This document shows, in pieces, positions 3,944 through 63,982 of a DNA stretch of 64,000 bases. The notes beneath the pieces are model-generated. The model searched no databases. It was not told where the DNA came from and was given only the letters and a program-made list of their open reading frames with translations. Within the stretch, counting starts at the first letter, position 1. Each line of letters begins with the position of its first letter. A program made the translations under genes and the position numbers. Origin of the DNA: Bacteroidota bacterium (GTDB taxonomy: Bacteria > Bacteroidota > Bacteroidia > Flavobacteriales > Flavobacteriaceae); contig JAGXRT010000064.1 in the NCBI GenBank assembly GCA_018335575.1, positions 1 to 64,000 on the forward strand. The letters are read 5' to 3'.

Positions 3944-5154
3944 GATTGAATTATTGACTGAGCAGCAAGGTAAGCACCTGTCCAAGCATTTTGAAAGTTA
4001 AAACCTCCCGTTACTGCATCTATATTCAACACTTCCCCAGCAAAATAAAGGTTTGGGATAATTTTACTCTCCATGGTTTTAAAGTTAACTTCTTTTAAAT
4101 CAACACCTCCACACATTACAAACTCGTCTTTAAAAGTACTTTTACCAGTAACTTTATAAGTAGCTTTTACTAATTCTACACCAAGGTTTTGTAAATCGAT
4201 TTTAGAAGCATCGGCCCAAATTTTTGATTCACTTATATTGCAATACGCACAAAATTGCATCCACAACCTGTTAGGAATATCTGCAAAAGGCGATTTTGAA
4301 CTAATGACTTTTTTAGCACTTGCAACCTTTATGTTTTTAAGTTCACTTTCAATAAATGCTTCCGATTTATTCAGCCAATTTACCTCTATATCGATATAAT
4401 AATTAACTTCTGCTAAGTATCGTGCTGCAAATGCAGATAGCTTTAATATTGCCGGCCCACTCATTCCCCAATGGGTCACTAACAATGGCCCATCCATCTC
4501 AAAAGCAGTATTTTTAATTTTTATTTTTGCCTTGGCCGCAACAATACCTGGTATGGATTTTAGGCGAACATCGTCTATTTCAAAGGTAAATAACGATGGT
4601 ACAGTGTGAATTATTTGATGCCCAAGCGTATTTATAATATTAAAAATTCTGTTATTACTGCCTGTTGCAATTAAAACAGTATCGGCTAAAAAATTTCCTT
4701 TAGAGGTAATTACTTCAAACTGTTGATTTTTTCTTAAAATAGTGGCAACTCTGTGTTGTACAAATACTTTAACACCTAATTCTTTTGCTGAATAGACAAA
4801 AAAATCAACAATGGTTTGTGATGAATTTGAAGCCGGAAAAACACGATTATCGTCTTCAGTTTTTAGCTCTATACCACGGTTTTCAAACCATTCTTGTGTT
4901 TCTTTGGTGCCAAAAGTATAAAAAGGACCTAACAATTCTTTTCCGCCTCGCGGATAAAATTTAACAAGTTCCCTTGGATCTTGACAAGCGTTTGTAATAT
5001 TACACCTACCACCTCCTGAAATCTTAACTTTTTGAAGTACTTGTTCGCTTTTTTCTAAAATAATCACTTCAACATCATTACGCATTTCGGCAATATTAAC
5101 AGCAGCAAAAAAACCAGCAGCACCACCTCCAATAATTACAACTTTCTTCGTCAT
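3940..5154 (-). CDS. NAD(P)/FAD-dependent oxidoreductase, HI0933/BaiN-like flavoprotein
   Basis: VVIIGGGAAGFFAA dinucleotide-binding motif, KVKISGGGRCNITN, C-terminal AGEVLNIDAVTGGFNFQNAWTGA. Confidence 0.85.
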   Translation of the reverse strand: MTKKVVIIGGGAAGFFAAVNIAEMRNDVEVIILEKSEQVLQKVKISGGGRCNITNACQDPRELVKFYPRGGKELLGPFYTFGTKETQEWFENRGIELKTEDDNRVFPASNSSQTIVDFFVYSAKELGVKVFVQHRVATILRKNQQFEVITSKGNFLADTVLIATGSNNRIFNIINTLGHQIIHTVPSLFTFEIDDVRLKSIPGIVAAKAKIKIKNTAFEMDGPLLVTHWGMSGPAILKLSAFAARYLAEVNYYIDIEVNWLNKSEAFIESELKNIKVASAKKVISSKSPFADIPNRLWMQFCAYCNISESKIWADASKIDLQNLGVELVKATYKVTGKSTFKDEFVMCGGVDLKEVNFKTMESKIIPNLYFAGEVLNIDAVTGGFNFQNAWTGAYLAAQSIIQS

Positions 5155-10921: not shown

Positions 10922-12412
10922 ATGGCGTTTAAATCAATAAGTCAAGGTCATCCTCAAGGGTTAATGACTTTATTTTTCTCAGAAATGTGGGAACGCGTTT
11001 GTTACTACGGAATGCGCGTACTCTTAACCTTATATTTAGTAAAATCATTAATGAAAGGCGATGCCGATGCTGCTTTAATATACGGTGCATATACAGGTCT
11101 TGTTTATGCAGCTCCAATTTTAGGCGGTAGAATGGCCGACAAATACCTTGGTTATAAAAACGCGGTTTTATTCGGTGCAATTTTAATGGCTATTGGTGAG
11201 TTCTTAATCTTAGGAGGAACTGAAGAGTTTTTAATGATTGGTATGGGAGCATTAATTGTTGGTAATGGATATTTTAAAGCAAATATTTCAACCATCGTTG
11301 GTAAACTTTATGAAGATGGCGACCCAAGAAGAGACTCTGGTTTTACAATTTTTTACATCGGTATTAACATTGGTGCTTTACTAGCTACTACTGTAATTGC
11401 ATATGTTGGTGAGACCTATGGATTTAAATACGGATTCGGATTAGCCGGTTTTGGTATGTTGTTAGGATTGTTAGTTTTCTGGACAGGAAGACACAATTAT
11501 GCTGCTGCACCCGGATTAAATTTTACCGAAGAAGGCAAACAAAAAGTAGTTGGATTTTTAAATAAAGCACATTTAGTTTACATTTTATCGTTTGTGTTAA
11601 TTCCGCTTTGTTACTTCTTAATCTACCAAAATAGCTGGATGGATTACATCCTAATAACCTTATTCTTATTTATTTCATACACCTTAGTAAAAGCTGGGGT
11701 TGCTGCCGATGCAGAACAAAAAGTTTCTATTTGGAAAGACCGAATGATTGCCTTAATTATTTTCATGTTAATAAATATTACATTTTGGGCATGTTTTGAA
11801 CAAGCAGGAACTTCGTTAACCTTATTTGCTGACAGAAATGTTGACAGAGTTATTTTTGGCTGGGAAATGCCTGCTTCTATGACACAGTTTTTCAATCCAT
11901 TTTTCATTATTGTTTTCGGGTCTATTTTCTCTGTAATGTGGGTTAAGTTATCTAGTATTGGTAAAAATCCAAGTATTCCGTTAAAATTTGCATTTGGTAT
12001 TTTACAATTAGCCTTAGGATTCTTAGTTACCAATATTGGTTTACAATTTGTAAACGAAGCGTATCAAGTGCCGTTAATTACATTAGTAGTTTTATACCTA
12101 TTACATACAACAGGTGAATTATTTTTGTCGCCTATCGGATTGTCGATGGTTACCAAGTTATCGCCTAAAAACATAGCCGGAACTGCTATGGGTGCGTGGT
12201 TCTTAAGTTTTGCGATTGCTAACTATCTTGGTGGGCAAATTGCAGCTTTAACAGGAGGACACGGTGAAGGTGGACAAGTATTAACAGCTGGTGAAGGATT
12301 GGCAAAATACATTTCAATATTCTCAACCATTGGATTTGTATTAATTGGTATAGCTTTAATAATTATACTGTTTAATAAATCACTTAAAAAGTTAATGCAC
12401 GGCGTTGTTTAA
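10922..12412 (+). CDS. POT-family peptide MFS transporter (copy 1)
   Basis: SEMWERVCYYGMR (ExxER motif), multi-TM, FWACFEQAGTSLTLFADR. Confidence 0.9.
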   Translation: MAFKSISQGHPQGLMTLFFSEMWERVCYYGMRVLLTLYLVKSLMKGDADAALIYGAYTGLVYAAPILGGRMADKYLGYKNAVLFGAILMAIGEFLILGGTEEFLMIGMGALIVGNGYFKANISTIVGKLYEDGDPRRDSGFTIFYIGINIGALLATTVIAYVGETYGFKYGFGLAGFGMLLGLLVFWTGRHNYAAAPGLNFTEEGKQKVVGFLNKAHLVYILSFVLIPLCYFLIYQNSWMDYILITLFLFISYTLVKAGVAADAEQKVSIWKDRMIALIIFMLINITFWACFEQAGTSLTLFADRNVDRVIFGWEMPASMTQFFNPFFIIVFGSIFSVMWVKLSSIGKNPSIPLKFAFGILQLALGFLVTNIGLQFVNEAYQVPLITLVVLYLLHTTGELFLSPIGLSMVTKLSPKNIAGTAMGAWFLSFAIANYLGGQIAALTGGHGEGGQVLTAGEGLAKYISIFSTIGFVLIGIALIIILFNKSLKKLMHGVV

Positions 12413-12480: not shown

Positions 12481-12499
12481 ATAAATACTGGTACTTTTA

Positions 12500-13987
12500 A
12501 TGGCAATACTTAAACCAAATTCGTTAGACGAGATTCAAAATTTTGAAGGAAAATATCCAAAGCAACTTTGGTATTTATTCTTTAGTGAAATGTGGGAGCG
12601 CTTCAGCTTTTACGGCATGCGTGGCATGTTAACCTTTTTTATGGTTGACCAACTCTTTTTTAACGAAGAAGCAGCAAACCTTCAATACGGTGCAACCCAA
12701 GCGTTTGTTTATGCCTTTACCTTTATTGGCGGTTTATTTGCCGATAAAATATTAGGTTACCGAAAATCTCTGTTCTGGGGAGGATTAATGATGATAATTG
12801 GTAGTGCTATACTGGCGCTCGATCCAAAATCATTTTTCTTCTTAGGAATTTCTTTTACAGTAATTGGAACAGGATTTTTTAAACCTAATATTTCTGCCAT
12901 GGTTGGCACATTGTACAAACCTCAGGATGTTAGACGCGATGCTGGGTTTTCACTGTTTTATTCGGGAATAAATATCGGAGCGCTTTTAGGAGGATATATC
13001 TGTGTGTTTATTGGCAAGAGTTACTCTTGGAATTTAGCATTTGGTTTAGCAGGTATTGTAATGACAATTAGTTTATTTACATTCCTTTTTACTCAAAAAA
13101 GTTTAGGCCCAATTGGAATATCGCCTTTGCTTAATCTAACAACTGCAAAAAGAAAATTATTTGAATATTTAACCTACGGAGGTTCATTAATTGCCATACC
13201 TATAATTTTGGTAATGGTTTCTAACCCAGATTATACAGATTATTTTATGTATACTATTGGTCCGGCAACCCTAATTTACCTGTTTCTTGAAATGCGAAAA
13301 TTCTCGTTTGAAGAGAACAAAAAACTAATTGCAGCTTTAATTTTTATCGTATTTTCAATTTTCTTCTGGGCATTTTTTGAACAAAGCGGTGGCTCATTAA
13401 GTTTATTTGCAGCCAACAATTTAGATAATGATTTTATGGGAGTTCCGTTGGATCCTAATGGAGTTAACAACGCTGCCAATGCACTATTCGTGATTGGTTT
13501 TGCACCGTTAATTGGAATCTTTTGGCTGTGGTTAAGCAAACGTAAAAAAGAGCCCAATACGGTGGTAAAATTTGGACTAGGATTTATCTTTTTAGCTTTG
13601 GCATTCTATATTTTTTACGCTACACGTTTTTTTGCCAATCAAGATGGGATAACCTCCTTAGAAATATTTACTACAGCTTATTTAGTTATAACTTTTGGAG
13701 AAATTTGCTTATCTCCGATTGGATTATCAATTATGACAAAATTATCACCACAATCTTTACAAGGTATGATGATGGGAATGTGGTTTTTAGCCAGTGCCTA
13801 CGGACAATATGTAGCCGGAATTTTAGGCGCCGGTATGGCCAAAGCAAATGAAAATGCTACTAAAATGGAAAAATTAATTGCCTATACAGACGGCTATTAC
13901 CAGCTGGCGGGGTATGCACTTATTGCCGGAATTGTACTAATCCTCATTTCGCCATTTGTTCGAAAATTAATGCAAGAAATTAAATAG
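12500..13987 (+). CDS. POT-family peptide MFS transporter (copy 2)
   Basis: SEMWERFSFYGMRGMLTFFMV, FWAFFEQSGGSLSLFA. Confidence 0.9.
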   Translation: MAILKPNSLDEIQNFEGKYPKQLWYLFFSEMWERFSFYGMRGMLTFFMVDQLFFNEEAANLQYGATQAFVYAFTFIGGLFADKILGYRKSLFWGGLMMIIGSAILALDPKSFFFLGISFTVIGTGFFKPNISAMVGTLYKPQDVRRDAGFSLFYSGINIGALLGGYICVFIGKSYSWNLAFGLAGIVMTISLFTFLFTQKSLGPIGISPLLNLTTAKRKLFEYLTYGGSLIAIPIILVMVSNPDYTDYFMYTIGPATLIYLFLEMRKFSFEENKKLIAALIFIVFSIFFWAFFEQSGGSLSLFAANNLDNDFMGVPLDPNGVNNAANALFVIGFAPLIGIFWLWLSKRKKEPNTVVKFGLGFIFLALAFYIFYATRFFANQDGITSLEIFTTAYLVITFGEICLSPIGLSIMTKLSPQSLQGMMMGMWFLASAYGQYVAGILGAGMAKANENATKMEKLIAYTDGYYQLAGYALIAGIVLILISPFVRKLMQEIK

Positions 13988-61755: not shown

Positions 61756-62283
61756 ATGGTAAAGTCACCACAAATTTTTAAATCAAACATTACTACAAAA
61801 TCACTTACAATTATTCTATTATTTTCAATTTTTTCAAATCTATTGCAATCATGCAGTAAAGATGATGATGAATTATTGCCTCAACAGAACATTACAGAAA
61901 TATATCTGGAAGGTTTAGAGGCAGAAGTTGTTAGCTCTGTTAACAAACACCGAGCTTCATTAGGTCTAAAGAATTTGTATCCCATTGCTCCGGCCTATAT
62001 GGAAGCTATAAATCATACTAATTATATGATTTTACAAGGGAAAATTAGTCATGATAATTTTGATCAACGAAAAGCTAATTTAATGGCAACAACCTCAGCT
62101 AAGATAGTTGCTGAAAATGTTGCTGCCGGCTTTAACAATGCTGATTCGGTATTAAGCGCCTGGTTAAGTAATCCATCACACCGAAAAAATATTGAGAATC
62201 CAGATGTTCAGTTTATAGGTGTTTCTGTTCAAAAAGACGGTTTTAACCGAAATTACTTCACTCAGATTTTTACTGGAAAGTAA
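61756..62283 (+). CDS. CAP/SCP-domain lipoprotein (copy 1)
   Basis: Lipobox LLQSCSKDDDE; VNKHRASLGL, ISHDNFDQR, AENVAAGF, WLSNPSHRKNIENP. Confidence 0.88.
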   Translation: MVKSPQIFKSNITTKSLTIILLFSIFSNLLQSCSKDDDELLPQQNITEIYLEGLEAEVVSSVNKHRASLGLKNLYPIAPAYMEAINHTNYMILQGKISHDNFDQRKANLMATTSAKIVAENVAAGFNNADSVLSAWLSNPSHRKNIENPDVQFIGVSVQKDGFNRNYFTQIFTGK

Positions 62284-62373: not shown

Positions 62374-62408
62374 AATGGTATGTTTTTTATAACCAATGGT
62401 AATTTTTT
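62374..62408 (+). promoter_or_regulatory. paired direct repeat AATGGTA-N14-AATGGTAATTTTTT upstream of CAP copy 2
   Basis: Repeats start at 62374 and 62395 (21-bp period); nearly identical to the element at 63517. Confidence 0.7.
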
Positions 62409-62419
62409 TACATTTTTAC

Positions 62420-62450
62420 TTGCTTTTTAATTTTTTTCATTTTATATTTA
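62420..62450 (+). promoter_or_regulatory. predicted Bacteroidota promoter TTG-N20-TATATTTA
   Basis: TTG at 62420-62422, TATATTTA at 62443-62450; resembles Flavobacterium -33/-7 TTG...TAnnTTTG; same geometry as the 63563 promoter. Confidence 0.6.
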
Positions 62451-62629
62451 CACCGTAAAACAAGATTTACAACGTTCTTAAAAGTCTGATTGAATAAAGT
62501 ATAATAAACAGATTTATAAAAAGTATCTAATAATCGAACCGTTGAGTTTTAAGTTTAAGATTTTGTATAATAAATTCAACTCAGTAGTATTAATAACATA
62601 ATGTTCAATTCATAATCACCCCAAAAGAT

Positions 62630-63124
62630 ATGAAAACATCAGCTAAATTACTAGTGCTTTTTATTACCGTAATTGCACTTACTTCTTGTTCTAAAGAAGA
62701 CGACATCTTTAACTCTCCTGTAGTTTCTACAGAATTGGTAACCTTTAACAACAGTTTAGAAAACGAAGTGTTAACCTTAGTTAATATTCATCGCGAAGGA
62801 TTAGGTTTATCAAAAGTAGCTGCTCTTGCCCCAGCTTATTCAGAGGCAATAAATCACACAAAATACATGATTGATCAAAACAAAATTAGTCATGACAATT
62901 TTGAAGTCAGAAGTAGAAACTTAATGACTTCAGCTAAAGCTAAAGTAGTCTTGGAAAATGTTGCTGCTGGTTATACTACCGCAGAAGGCGTTGTAAATGG
63001 CTGGCTTAATAGCGAGTTACATCGTAAAAATATTGAAGACTCTTCTGTACAGTTTATGAGCGTTTCTGTTCAACAAAATGCTTCAGGCAGAAATTATTAC
63101 ACTCAAATTTTTGTTGGGAAATAA
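62630..63124 (+). CDS. CAP/SCP-domain lipoprotein (copy 2)
   Basis: Lipobox LTSCSKEDD; VNIHREGLGL, KISHDNFEVR, LENVAAGYT, HRKNIEDSSVQF. Confidence 0.88.
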   Translation: MKTSAKLLVLFITVIALTSCSKEDDIFNSPVVSTELVTFNNSLENEVLTLVNIHREGLGLSKVAALAPAYSEAINHTKYMIDQNKISHDNFEVRSRNLMTSAKAKVVLENVAAGYTTAEGVVNGWLNSELHRKNIEDSSVQFMSVSVQQNASGRNYYTQIFVGK

Positions 63125-63181
63125 AAATTACACGCTTTTACCTGTAAACCCTAAGAATTCTTTCAATTAAATTAGAAGATT

Positions 63182-63337
63182 ATGAAAACAATAGAAATAA
63201 ATCACCCAAAAAAATCAAATGTTTTTAACACTAAATCAAAAATTGAAAAAACATTGATAAACTCTTTATCTCCAAATTTTTTCTACGTGAACAAATCAGG
63301 AGGTATTGTGCACCCTGAACAATGTTGTTTGTATTAA
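63182..63337 (+). CDS. 51-aa small peptide A: MKTIEINHPKKSNVFNTKSKIEKTLINSLSPNFFYVNKSGGIVHPEQCCLY
   Basis: Not in the ORF track (<60 aa); same length and strong C-terminal identity with peptide B at 63621; 57 nt after CAP copy 2. Confidence 0.8.
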   Translation: MKTIEINHPKKSNVFNTKSKIEKTLINSLSPNFFYVNKSGGIVHPEQCCLY

Positions 63338-63422
63338 TGCAACTATTGTATATCATAATTCAGTGTATTATTTGAATTAAAATCGTATAAAAATAAAAGG
63401 TTAGTAATTTTAGTATTTAGCC

Positions 63423-63458
63423 AAAGAGCACTTTCATGTATTACAAGTGCTCTTTTGT
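63423..63458 (+). terminator. intrinsic terminator after peptide A
   Basis: Perfect 11-bp stem AAAGAGCACTT-11 nt-AAGTGCTCTTT followed by T-rich sequence. Confidence 0.85.
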
Positions 63459-63516
63459 TATTTTATTAACTTGCTTTAATATAATAAAAATCAATATTAG
63501 CGATTTTTATATAACC

Positions 63517-63551
63517 ATTGGTATGTTTTTTATAACAAATGGTAATTTTTT
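63517..63551 (+). promoter_or_regulatory. paired direct repeat ATTGGTA-N14-AATGGTAATTTTTT upstream of peptide B
   Basis: Repeats start at 63517 and 63538 (21-bp period); core GGTATGTTTTTTATAAC shared with 62374 element. Confidence 0.7.
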
Positions 63552-63562
63552 AATTTTTTTCT

Positions 63563-63593
63563 TTGGTTTATAATTTATTTTACTCTATATTTA
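63563..63593 (+). promoter_or_regulatory. predicted promoter TTG-N20-TATATTTA for peptide B
   Basis: TTG at 63563-63565, TATATTTA at 63586-63593; same spacing as at 62420-62450. Confidence 0.6.
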
Positions 63594-63620
63594 CATCATA
63601 AATAAACACCCCAAAAGTTT

Positions 63621-63776
63621 ATGAAAACACTTGTTGCAAATCATGCTTTAAAGTCTAAGCTTGCTTCTAAAGATGCTTACAAAGGACCTACATTAATCAA
63701 TTCCTTATCACCTAATTTTTCATACAAGAATAAGTCTGGTGGAATTGTTATACCAGAACAATGTTTAATATACTAA
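63621..63776 (+). CDS. 51-aa small peptide B: MKTLVANHALKSKLASKDAYKGPTLINSLSPNFSYKNKSGGIVIPEQCLIY
   Basis: Own promoter and CACCCCAAAAG leader as before CAP copy 2; 30/51 residues identical to peptide A by hand count. Confidence 0.82.
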   Translation: MKTLVANHALKSKLASKDAYKGPTLINSLSPNFSYKNKSGGIVIPEQCLIY

Positions 63777-63842: not shown

Positions 63843-63910
63843 AAGGTTAGTAGATTTTTAAAATTAATCAACATTTAAGCTAGTAAAATTTAAAGGTTAG
63901 TAGATTTATT
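63843..63910 (+). repeat. tandem AAGGTTAGTAGATTT elements, 50-bp period
   Basis: Copies at 63843 and 63893; related AAAAGGTTAGTA at 63395 downstream of peptide A. Confidence 0.6.
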
Positions 63911-63921
63911 TTTTACACATT

Positions 63922-63949
63922 AAAAGCATCAGTCTGGATGCTTTTTTTG
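63922..63949 (+). terminator. intrinsic terminator (first of two tandem)
   Basis: AAAGCATC-AGTCTG-GATGCTTT plus T run. Confidence 0.8.
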
Positions 63950-63952
63950 TTC

Positions 63953-63982
63953 AAGAGCATCAGTCTGGATGCTCTTTTATTT
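63953..63982 (+). terminator. intrinsic terminator (second of two tandem, same loop)
   Basis: AAGAGCATC-AGTCTG-GATGCTCTT followed by T-rich sequence. Confidence 0.8.

Follow-up and report, generated by a model that had tools for sequence, protein, structure and literature searches.

In the agr system of Staphylococcus (AgrC/AgrA, AgrD, RNAIII), a polytopic kinase and a LytTR regulator govern both a short peptide gene and an RNA that is itself regulatory, and the peptide has a conserved Cys near its C terminus; the circuit described here is predicted to share this layout. In the Qrr system, the two-component regulator LuxO drives an sRNA, which base-pairs with its target mRNAs close to the initiation region. 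Promoters controlled by LytTR-domain regulators (AgrA, BrsR/HdrR, YpdB, VirR) resemble those studied here in having two direct repeats of 9–10 nt about two helical turns apart, an ACC-type core, and a fixed distance between the site and the promoter downstream of it (PMC6193735, PMC4847170, PMC4227749). The LytTR site format is a pair of 9-nt repeats with a 12-bp spacer (PMC6193735, PMC4847170), as in the BrsR site, ACCACTTAT-12-ACCGCTTAT (PMC6193735), and likewise for YpdB (PMC4847170). A flavobacterial sRNA, Rfp18 of Flavobacterium psychrophilum, is conserved and trans-acting, with a stem-loop predicted to pair with mRNAs for secreted proteins (PMC9723704); judged by its description, it resembles the sRNA reported below. 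For Bacteroidota, which are without Shine-Dalgarno signals, there is hardly any documentation of LytTR binding sites or of sRNA seeds with their targets. A limited literature search found no earlier Bacteroidota case of a LytTR-regulated promoter, and nothing matching a LytTR/sRNA/peptide circuit in Bacteroidota or Lutibacter. From comparative sequence analysis, we consider it likely that a LytTR response regulator activates messages for CAP lipoproteins and small peptides together with an sRNA that represses those messages.

The element from which this prediction derives lies in a 64-kb stretch of DNA (the window) from the genome referred to as G000; three congeneric species are G001–G003, and the Lutibacter set, whose genus name comes from a named MAG, comprises G051, G332 and L. 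flavus DSM 27993. Two predicted CAP lipoproteins (PF00188) are encoded on the plus strand of the window. CAP copy 1 (61756..62283) begins 2 bp past the preceding peptidase gene, and we saw no box pair of its own. CAP copy 2 (CAP2; 62630..63124) is followed after 57 bp by the gene for peptide A (pepA; 63182..63337, plus strand; 51 aa, ending in INSLSPNFFYVNKSGGIVHPEQCCLY), and the two genes are probably on one transcript. Further along the same strand is the gene for a paralogue that is 59% identical to peptide A, peptide B (pepB; 63621..63776; 51 aa, ending in INSLSPNFSYKNKSGGIVIPEQCLIY). A terminator-like hairpin (AGAGCACTT...AAGTGCTCTTTTGTT; 63425..63460, plus strand) lies between pepA and pepB, and two tandem terminator-like hairpins (AAAGCATCAGTCTGGATGC... 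and AGAGCATCAGTCTGGATGC...; 63923..63979, plus strand) follow pepB.

Upstream of each transcript is a pair of boxes on the plus strand, AATGGTATGTTTTTTATAACCAATGGTAATTTTTT before CAP2 (62374..62408; in reverse complement, ACCATTGGT-N12-ACCATTCAT) and ATTGGTATGTTTTTTATAACAAATGGTAATTTTTT before pepB (63517..63551), both kept in G001–G003. The original prediction reported these two 35-mers as a duplicated regulatory module, and its positions proved exact to the base. The repeat starts are indeed 21 bp apart upstream of both CAP2 and pepB, the two boxes (AATGGTA or ATTGGTA) stand 69 and 48 bp from TATATTTA at both promoters, and TTG-N20-TATATTTA is exact in both cases (62420..62450 for CAP2-pepA and 63563..63593 for pepB, plus strand, each with 48 bp from the proximal AATGGTA to the -7 box). 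These promoters are of the Bacteroidota type, for which the -33/-7 consensus is TTTG/TAnnTTTG (PMC6847099). The sequence around the modules was also said to have diverged, and it has: identity between promoters is 15–19 of 20 positions over the boxes and 9–11 of 20 immediately 3′ of the -7 element.

TGGTA-N16-TGGTA occurs three times in the window, where 0.14 occurrences are expected and 0 of 100 shuffles reach three. The third exact match (11239–11264) lies outside the CAP/peptide locus, is not of the extended type, and is probably due to chance. A genome-wide scan separated the specific part of the motif from the unspecific part. The bare TGGTA-N16-TGGTA pair is barely above background (31 matches genome-wide versus 21 for a reversed-pattern control), as is a 14-base form of the pair with two mismatches allowed (106 versus 103); we therefore rejected the bare pair as a genome-wide marker. 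The extended element combined with its geometry is specific. With up to three mismatches, TGGTATGTTTTTTATAANNNATGGTAA has 10 matches and no control matches in the four congeneric genomes (G000–G003), and TGGTATGTTTTN8AATGGTA has six matches and no control matches in 400 Flavobacteriaceae genomes. The full element containing TGTTTT is present in 3 of those 400 genomes and in two genera only, that of the window and Lutibacter.

The genes that follow the element are consistent across these species. It is found upstream of CAP2 and pepB in all of G000–G003, and also upstream of a gene for a secreted LRR protein in G000 (at C11) and G002. In all three Lutibacter genomes it precedes CAP lipoprotein genes, which are followed by a related small peptide; the L. 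flavus CAP promoter has five half-sites, all in 21-bp register (5076, 5097, 5139, 5160 and 5181, counted as the starts of TGGT within AATGGT). No clear box pair was seen in the stretch read for a second CAP-peptide pair of G051 (L070). Between the proximal box and the -7 element there are 48 bp at CAP2 and pepB, and 47 bp at the LRR gene and the Lutibacter CAP genes, a distance held in 12 of 12 such promoters with a recognisable proximal box. In the thirteenth promoter, that of pepB in G001, the proximal box is mutated (TATGGCA) and the distal box is in phase at 69 bp. TTG-N20 is present in 11 of these promoters. Recent duplication could in principle produce two similar promoters, if pepA and pepB had been copied together with their upstream DNA and no functional constraint applied; the two peptides are paralogous (59%), and the likeness of the CAP2 and pepB promoters extends beyond the boxes. 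However, four species and Lutibacter share both the boxes and their distance, an unrelated LRR gene is preceded by them as well, and the flanks have diverged; we regard this explanation as very improbable. We conclude from the comparison that the paired boxes are real and conserved across genera, and that they mark the promoters of one predicted small flavobacterial regulon.

The original prediction proposed that a two-site activator, plausibly of the LytTR type, co-regulates both transcripts. The format of the sites, the fixed geometry in two genera and a regulator/kinase locus found in eight genomes favour a two-site co-regulator that is probably of this type. On the opposite strand each half-site reads ACCATTnnn; the spacer is 12 bp and the period 21 bp in the four congeners and Lutibacter. 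The box pair falls within the limits by which LytTR promoters are recognised (direct repeats of 9–11 nt separated by 11–13 bp), and it occupies a fixed position just upstream of the promoter, at 48/47 bp for the mRNAs and 63/62 bp for the sRNA described below. G000 has five LytTR genes. One of these, at G000:C65:10163-10918, encodes a response regulator (RR) with a receiver domain (PF00072) and a LytTR domain (PF04397), both above cut-off; the kinase at the same locus combines PF06580 with 7TMR-DISM. This RR is 90–94% identical in the three congeners, 73–74% in Lutibacter and 68% in G036, and the gene order at its locus is syntenic: trpS, acyltransferase-like, hemolysin-III-like, RR and 7TM kinase (names by inspection).

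Each orthologous RR-kinase locus (about 12–14 kb) contains exactly one box pair with no more than one mismatch in all eight genomes (the four congeners, the three Lutibacter and G036). The pair lies 2 to 140 bp past a kinase stop codon in seven of these genomes and overlaps the 3′ end of the kinase gene in G036. Since pairs of this quality occur in G000 at a density of 14 per 2.2 Mb, about 0.09 would be expected per RR locus. Less related LytTR loci have no pair in 8 of 9 cases; the ninth has a pair with one mismatch. One observation runs counter to the assignment: at the mRNA promoters, the sites face the other way from the streptococcal LytTR sites that have been tabulated. A different kind of regulator, for example of the OmpR type, might bind the repeats, with the LytTR locus merely one of its targets, given that LytTR proteins are not alone in using direct repeats spaced by two helical turns. 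Nevertheless, the half-site length, the 12-bp spacer and the ACC core are all as in LytTR sites, and one pair accompanies each orthologous RR locus in eight genomes; we consider a non-LytTR regulator improbable.

If the sites are of the LytTR type, the regulator could still be another of the five LytTR proteins, or several could share the site. The candidate at C29 deserves mention in this respect: the gene for this 243-aa RR stops some 100 bp short of a perfect ACCATTCAT-N12-ACCATTCAT pair, with half-sites at 84, 63 and 42 bp from a TAATTTTG box. However, only one relative of the C29 protein was found in the congeners (G001, 61% identical), whereas the conservation of the C65 RR in the congeners and Lutibacter matches the distribution of the sites. 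We regard a regulator other than the C65 RR, or one sharing its site, as unlikely. The C29 array itself (three half-sites near 4975, at the 84/63/42-bp spacing) has this second LytTR regulator gene on one side and a gene for a secreted protein on the other. We conclude that a LytTR-domain regulator is the predicted binder of the box pairs, and that it is most likely the one encoded at G000:C65:10163-10918. We infer that this RR is phosphorylated and acts as an activator, and that from its fixed distance upstream of the -33/-7 promoter it would activate the CAP2-pepA, pepB and LRR-protein (C11) transcripts.

The RR locus also encodes a putative sRNA, on the minus strand at about 12,496–12,586 of G000:C65, with a promoter box, a hairpin with a GGGG loop, and a terminator. 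In 9 of 9 genomes the TAnnTTTG box of the sRNA and the proximal half-site are 63 bp apart (62 bp in L. flavus), a count that includes G006 although its box site is weak. Downstream of the promoter are a short conserved sequence, a 9–10 bp hairpin with the loop UUUUGGGGU or UUUGGGGUU, and an intrinsic terminator; hairpin and terminator are found in 10 genomes, including G005, where the site is not recognisable. The sRNA would be about 75 nt long in the genome of the window and 118–135 nt in most others, and those of Lutibacter and G006 have an additional 5′ hairpin bearing GAGGGGUU. Pairing within the hairpin is kept in 98.9% of the cells scored, through one-sided (G-U) changes; only G-U exchanges were seen, with no compensatory covariation. 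Neither the sRNA nor the UTR elements matched an Rfam family at gathering level, and we set aside the sub-threshold Rfam matches as weak and chance-like. By sequence, this RNA has its own promoter, a terminator and an exposed conserved seed, the features expected of a trans-acting base-pairing sRNA.

The arrangement of sites around the sRNA differs between genera. In Lutibacter and G036, the strong pair is the one that precedes the sRNA. In the genus of the window, the sRNA is preceded by a degenerate pair (3–4 mismatches) after a first kinase gene; the strong pair there comes after a second kinase gene and upstream of the RR. This two-kinase layout suggests that an ancestral unit of RR, kinase, site and sRNA was duplicated in tandem. 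In this genus, the sites before the RR gene itself do not keep the 63-bp geometry, so the case for RR autoregulation is weak there; these sites may be relics of the tandem duplication. We propose that the same RR, acting through an oppositely oriented site at this second fixed distance, would activate the sRNA, which is encoded within the operon region of the RR.

The sRNA loop is complementary to sequences immediately upstream of the predicted target genes. The loop AUCUUUUGGGGUG is a perfect complement of CACCCCAAAAGAU at positions -13 to -1 of CAP2, and of CACCCCAAAAG at positions -14 to -4 of pepB. In window coordinates, these are the 13-nt complement CACCCCAAAAGAT (62617..62629, plus strand), directly 5′ of the CAP2 start codon, and the 11-nt complement CACCCCAAAAG (63607..63617, plus strand), 5′ of the pepB start codon. 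The congeners retain 9–14 nt of complementarity at the same place in the leader, with the pepB-leader complement reaching 14 nt in all three. Within the genus, complementarity is confined to a constrained place, -14 to -1 of CAP2 and pepB. CAP2 has the best match among 168 gene starts of its own genome (13 nt, versus 9 for the next), and the duplex energies for CAP2 and pepB (-24.8 and -26.2 kcal/mol) stand against a mean of -13.7 (s.d. 4.1) for 54 starts in the window; one other gene reaches a similar energy, through a long interrupted duplex. Genome-wide, the only plausible starts with ACCCCAAAAG in the 20 nt or so before them are those of CAP2, pepB and a CsbD-like gene in G002; the sequence is also present, as antisense, in the sRNA of all four congeneric genomes. 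We found no good sRNA match for pepA or the LRR gene.

Both the sRNA loop and the target leaders have changed in Lutibacter. The complement is 14 nt for the G051 CAP gene (with hairpin 1), 14 nt for the G332 CAP gene, and 12 nt for the L. flavus CAP gene, where it lies within the first codons. Leader fragments from L. flavus and G051, which do not contain the whole matching segment, gave duplex energies no better than those of shuffles. The leader of a G051 gene for an 86-aa protein has a 22-nt perfect complement to the sRNA. This ORF (G051 L070 649–909), which ends in FCCGCILYIVF and lies upstream of a CAP gene, may be another small-peptide gene. In the CAP2 leader of G002 we also observed a possible upstream ORF of 10 codons (MKTTSCIPKK), with its own CACCCCAAAGGTT before the ATG.

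We propose that the sRNA would expose UCUUUUGGGGU in its hairpin loop and pair with CACCCCAAAAG(AU), which immediately precedes the start codons of CAP2 and pepB, most likely blocking ribosome entry. Translation in Bacteroidota is sensitive to structure in the region of the start codon; in the initiation region of F. johnsoniae, structure lowers translation (PMC6847099). Because of this sensitivity, pairing at -14 to -1 most likely represses. A regulatory RNA of the opposite sign would make a coherent feed-forward loop, with pairing stabilising the message or opening the leader. A precedent for activation is Rfp18, which raises the levels of its predicted targets, since their mRNA drops in a deletion mutant (PMC9723704), and the CAP leader of Lutibacter G332 pairs far upstream, at -52 to -39. 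However, pairing in the genus of the window spans -14 to -1, the initiation region in which structure lowers F. johnsoniae translation (PMC6847099), and the leader alone is mostly unpaired, so that there would be little for the sRNA to open. We view activation as doubtful, and infer that the sRNA probably represses its targets. An RR activating both an mRNA and the sRNA that represses it would form an incoherent feed-forward loop, and CAP lipoprotein and peptide would then be made in a pulse or up to a ceiling.

The peptides themselves belong to a small family. CAP-linked peptides are 47–62 aa long across three congeneric species and Lutibacter, and peptides A and B have no match in Pfam or NCBIfam. 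They had been described as Gly-Gly peptides, a feature that did not hold for the family: GG is found only in the genus of the window, and the corresponding segments of the Lutibacter relatives are KKGTLITP, KDGKYVEP, HLGELITP and KKGQIITP. A Gly-Gly leader of the ComC/bacteriocin type is thereby ruled out as a family feature. A Cys four residues from the C-terminal end is conserved (CLIY, CCLY, CILL, CVLL). In G003, a third paralogue (G003:C278:16729-16881, ending in NKIGGIIHPVQCYLY) follows an XRE-type regulator gene and has no adjoining CAP gene.

Repeated elements follow the peptide genes. The 3′ region of peptide A has one AAGGTTAGTA element (63397..63406, plus strand), which is kept in the genus; two are present in the 3′ region of pepB (63843..63902, at 63843–63852 and 63893–63902, plus strand), where the congeners have three to five. 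The corresponding AAGGTTAGT(A) elements are found 3′ of every peptide gene in the genus, with one after pepA and up to five after pepB; the dense arrays have a spacing of 16–20 bp, and a search of 150 genomes gave no other place with such closely spaced tandem copies. A search of the loci examined for an RNA that could partner these repeats (ACTAACC) returned only the repeats themselves and unrelated coding matches. The 3′ regions in G332 and G051 carry tandem units of the GTTGT-CCCC-ACAAC-GGTAGT type (about seven in G332), and such CCCC-loop hairpins could be a sponge for the GGGG-loop sRNA.

No exporter was found near the peptide genes, and the peptide gene is elsewhere in the genome than the kinase genes. 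Export of the peptide and its sensing by the kinases are speculative, and the autoregulated peptide circuit of the original prediction is best treated as a hypothesis. A bolder scheme would be agr-like communication that arose independently in Bacteroidota, in which the 7TM kinase/LytTR pair drives the RNA, the secreted CAP lipoprotein and the Cys peptide, the matured peptide serves as signal or effector, and the 3′ CCCC-loop array of the Lutibacter peptide message acts as an sRNA sponge; we think this unlikely.

The main product of the analysis is a predicted circuit of LytTR regulator, sRNA and targets, in which promoters follow either of two fixed geometries and seed and target change in parallel. 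One short DNA element leads to a candidate regulator, a two-geometry promoter rule, an sRNA, its targets, and an uncharacterised CAP-plus-peptide family. Lutibacter flavus DSM 27993, an isolate, carries the predicted circuit, which would make LytTR signalling and sRNA control of translation without Shine-Dalgarno signals directly testable. Set against known LytTR promoters, those described here have the Bacteroidota promoter TTG-N20-TAnnTTT[GA], use two geometries in which the site is oppositely oriented (48/47 bp at the mRNA promoters and 63 bp at that of the sRNA), and in Lutibacter have arrays that reach five half-sites. Relative to agr, the peptides match no known family, the peptide gene does not adjoin the kinase gene, the kinase has 7TMR-DISM and PF06580, and the sRNA, at 75–135 nt, is far shorter than RNAIII. 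Rfp18 differs in that its targets are metalloproteases, its pairing region is the third stem-loop, and no LytTR link is reported (PMC9723704). In contrast to Qrr control, the predicted regulator here is a LytTR protein rather than a sigma-54-dependent one, and it apparently drives the target mRNAs as well as the sRNA.
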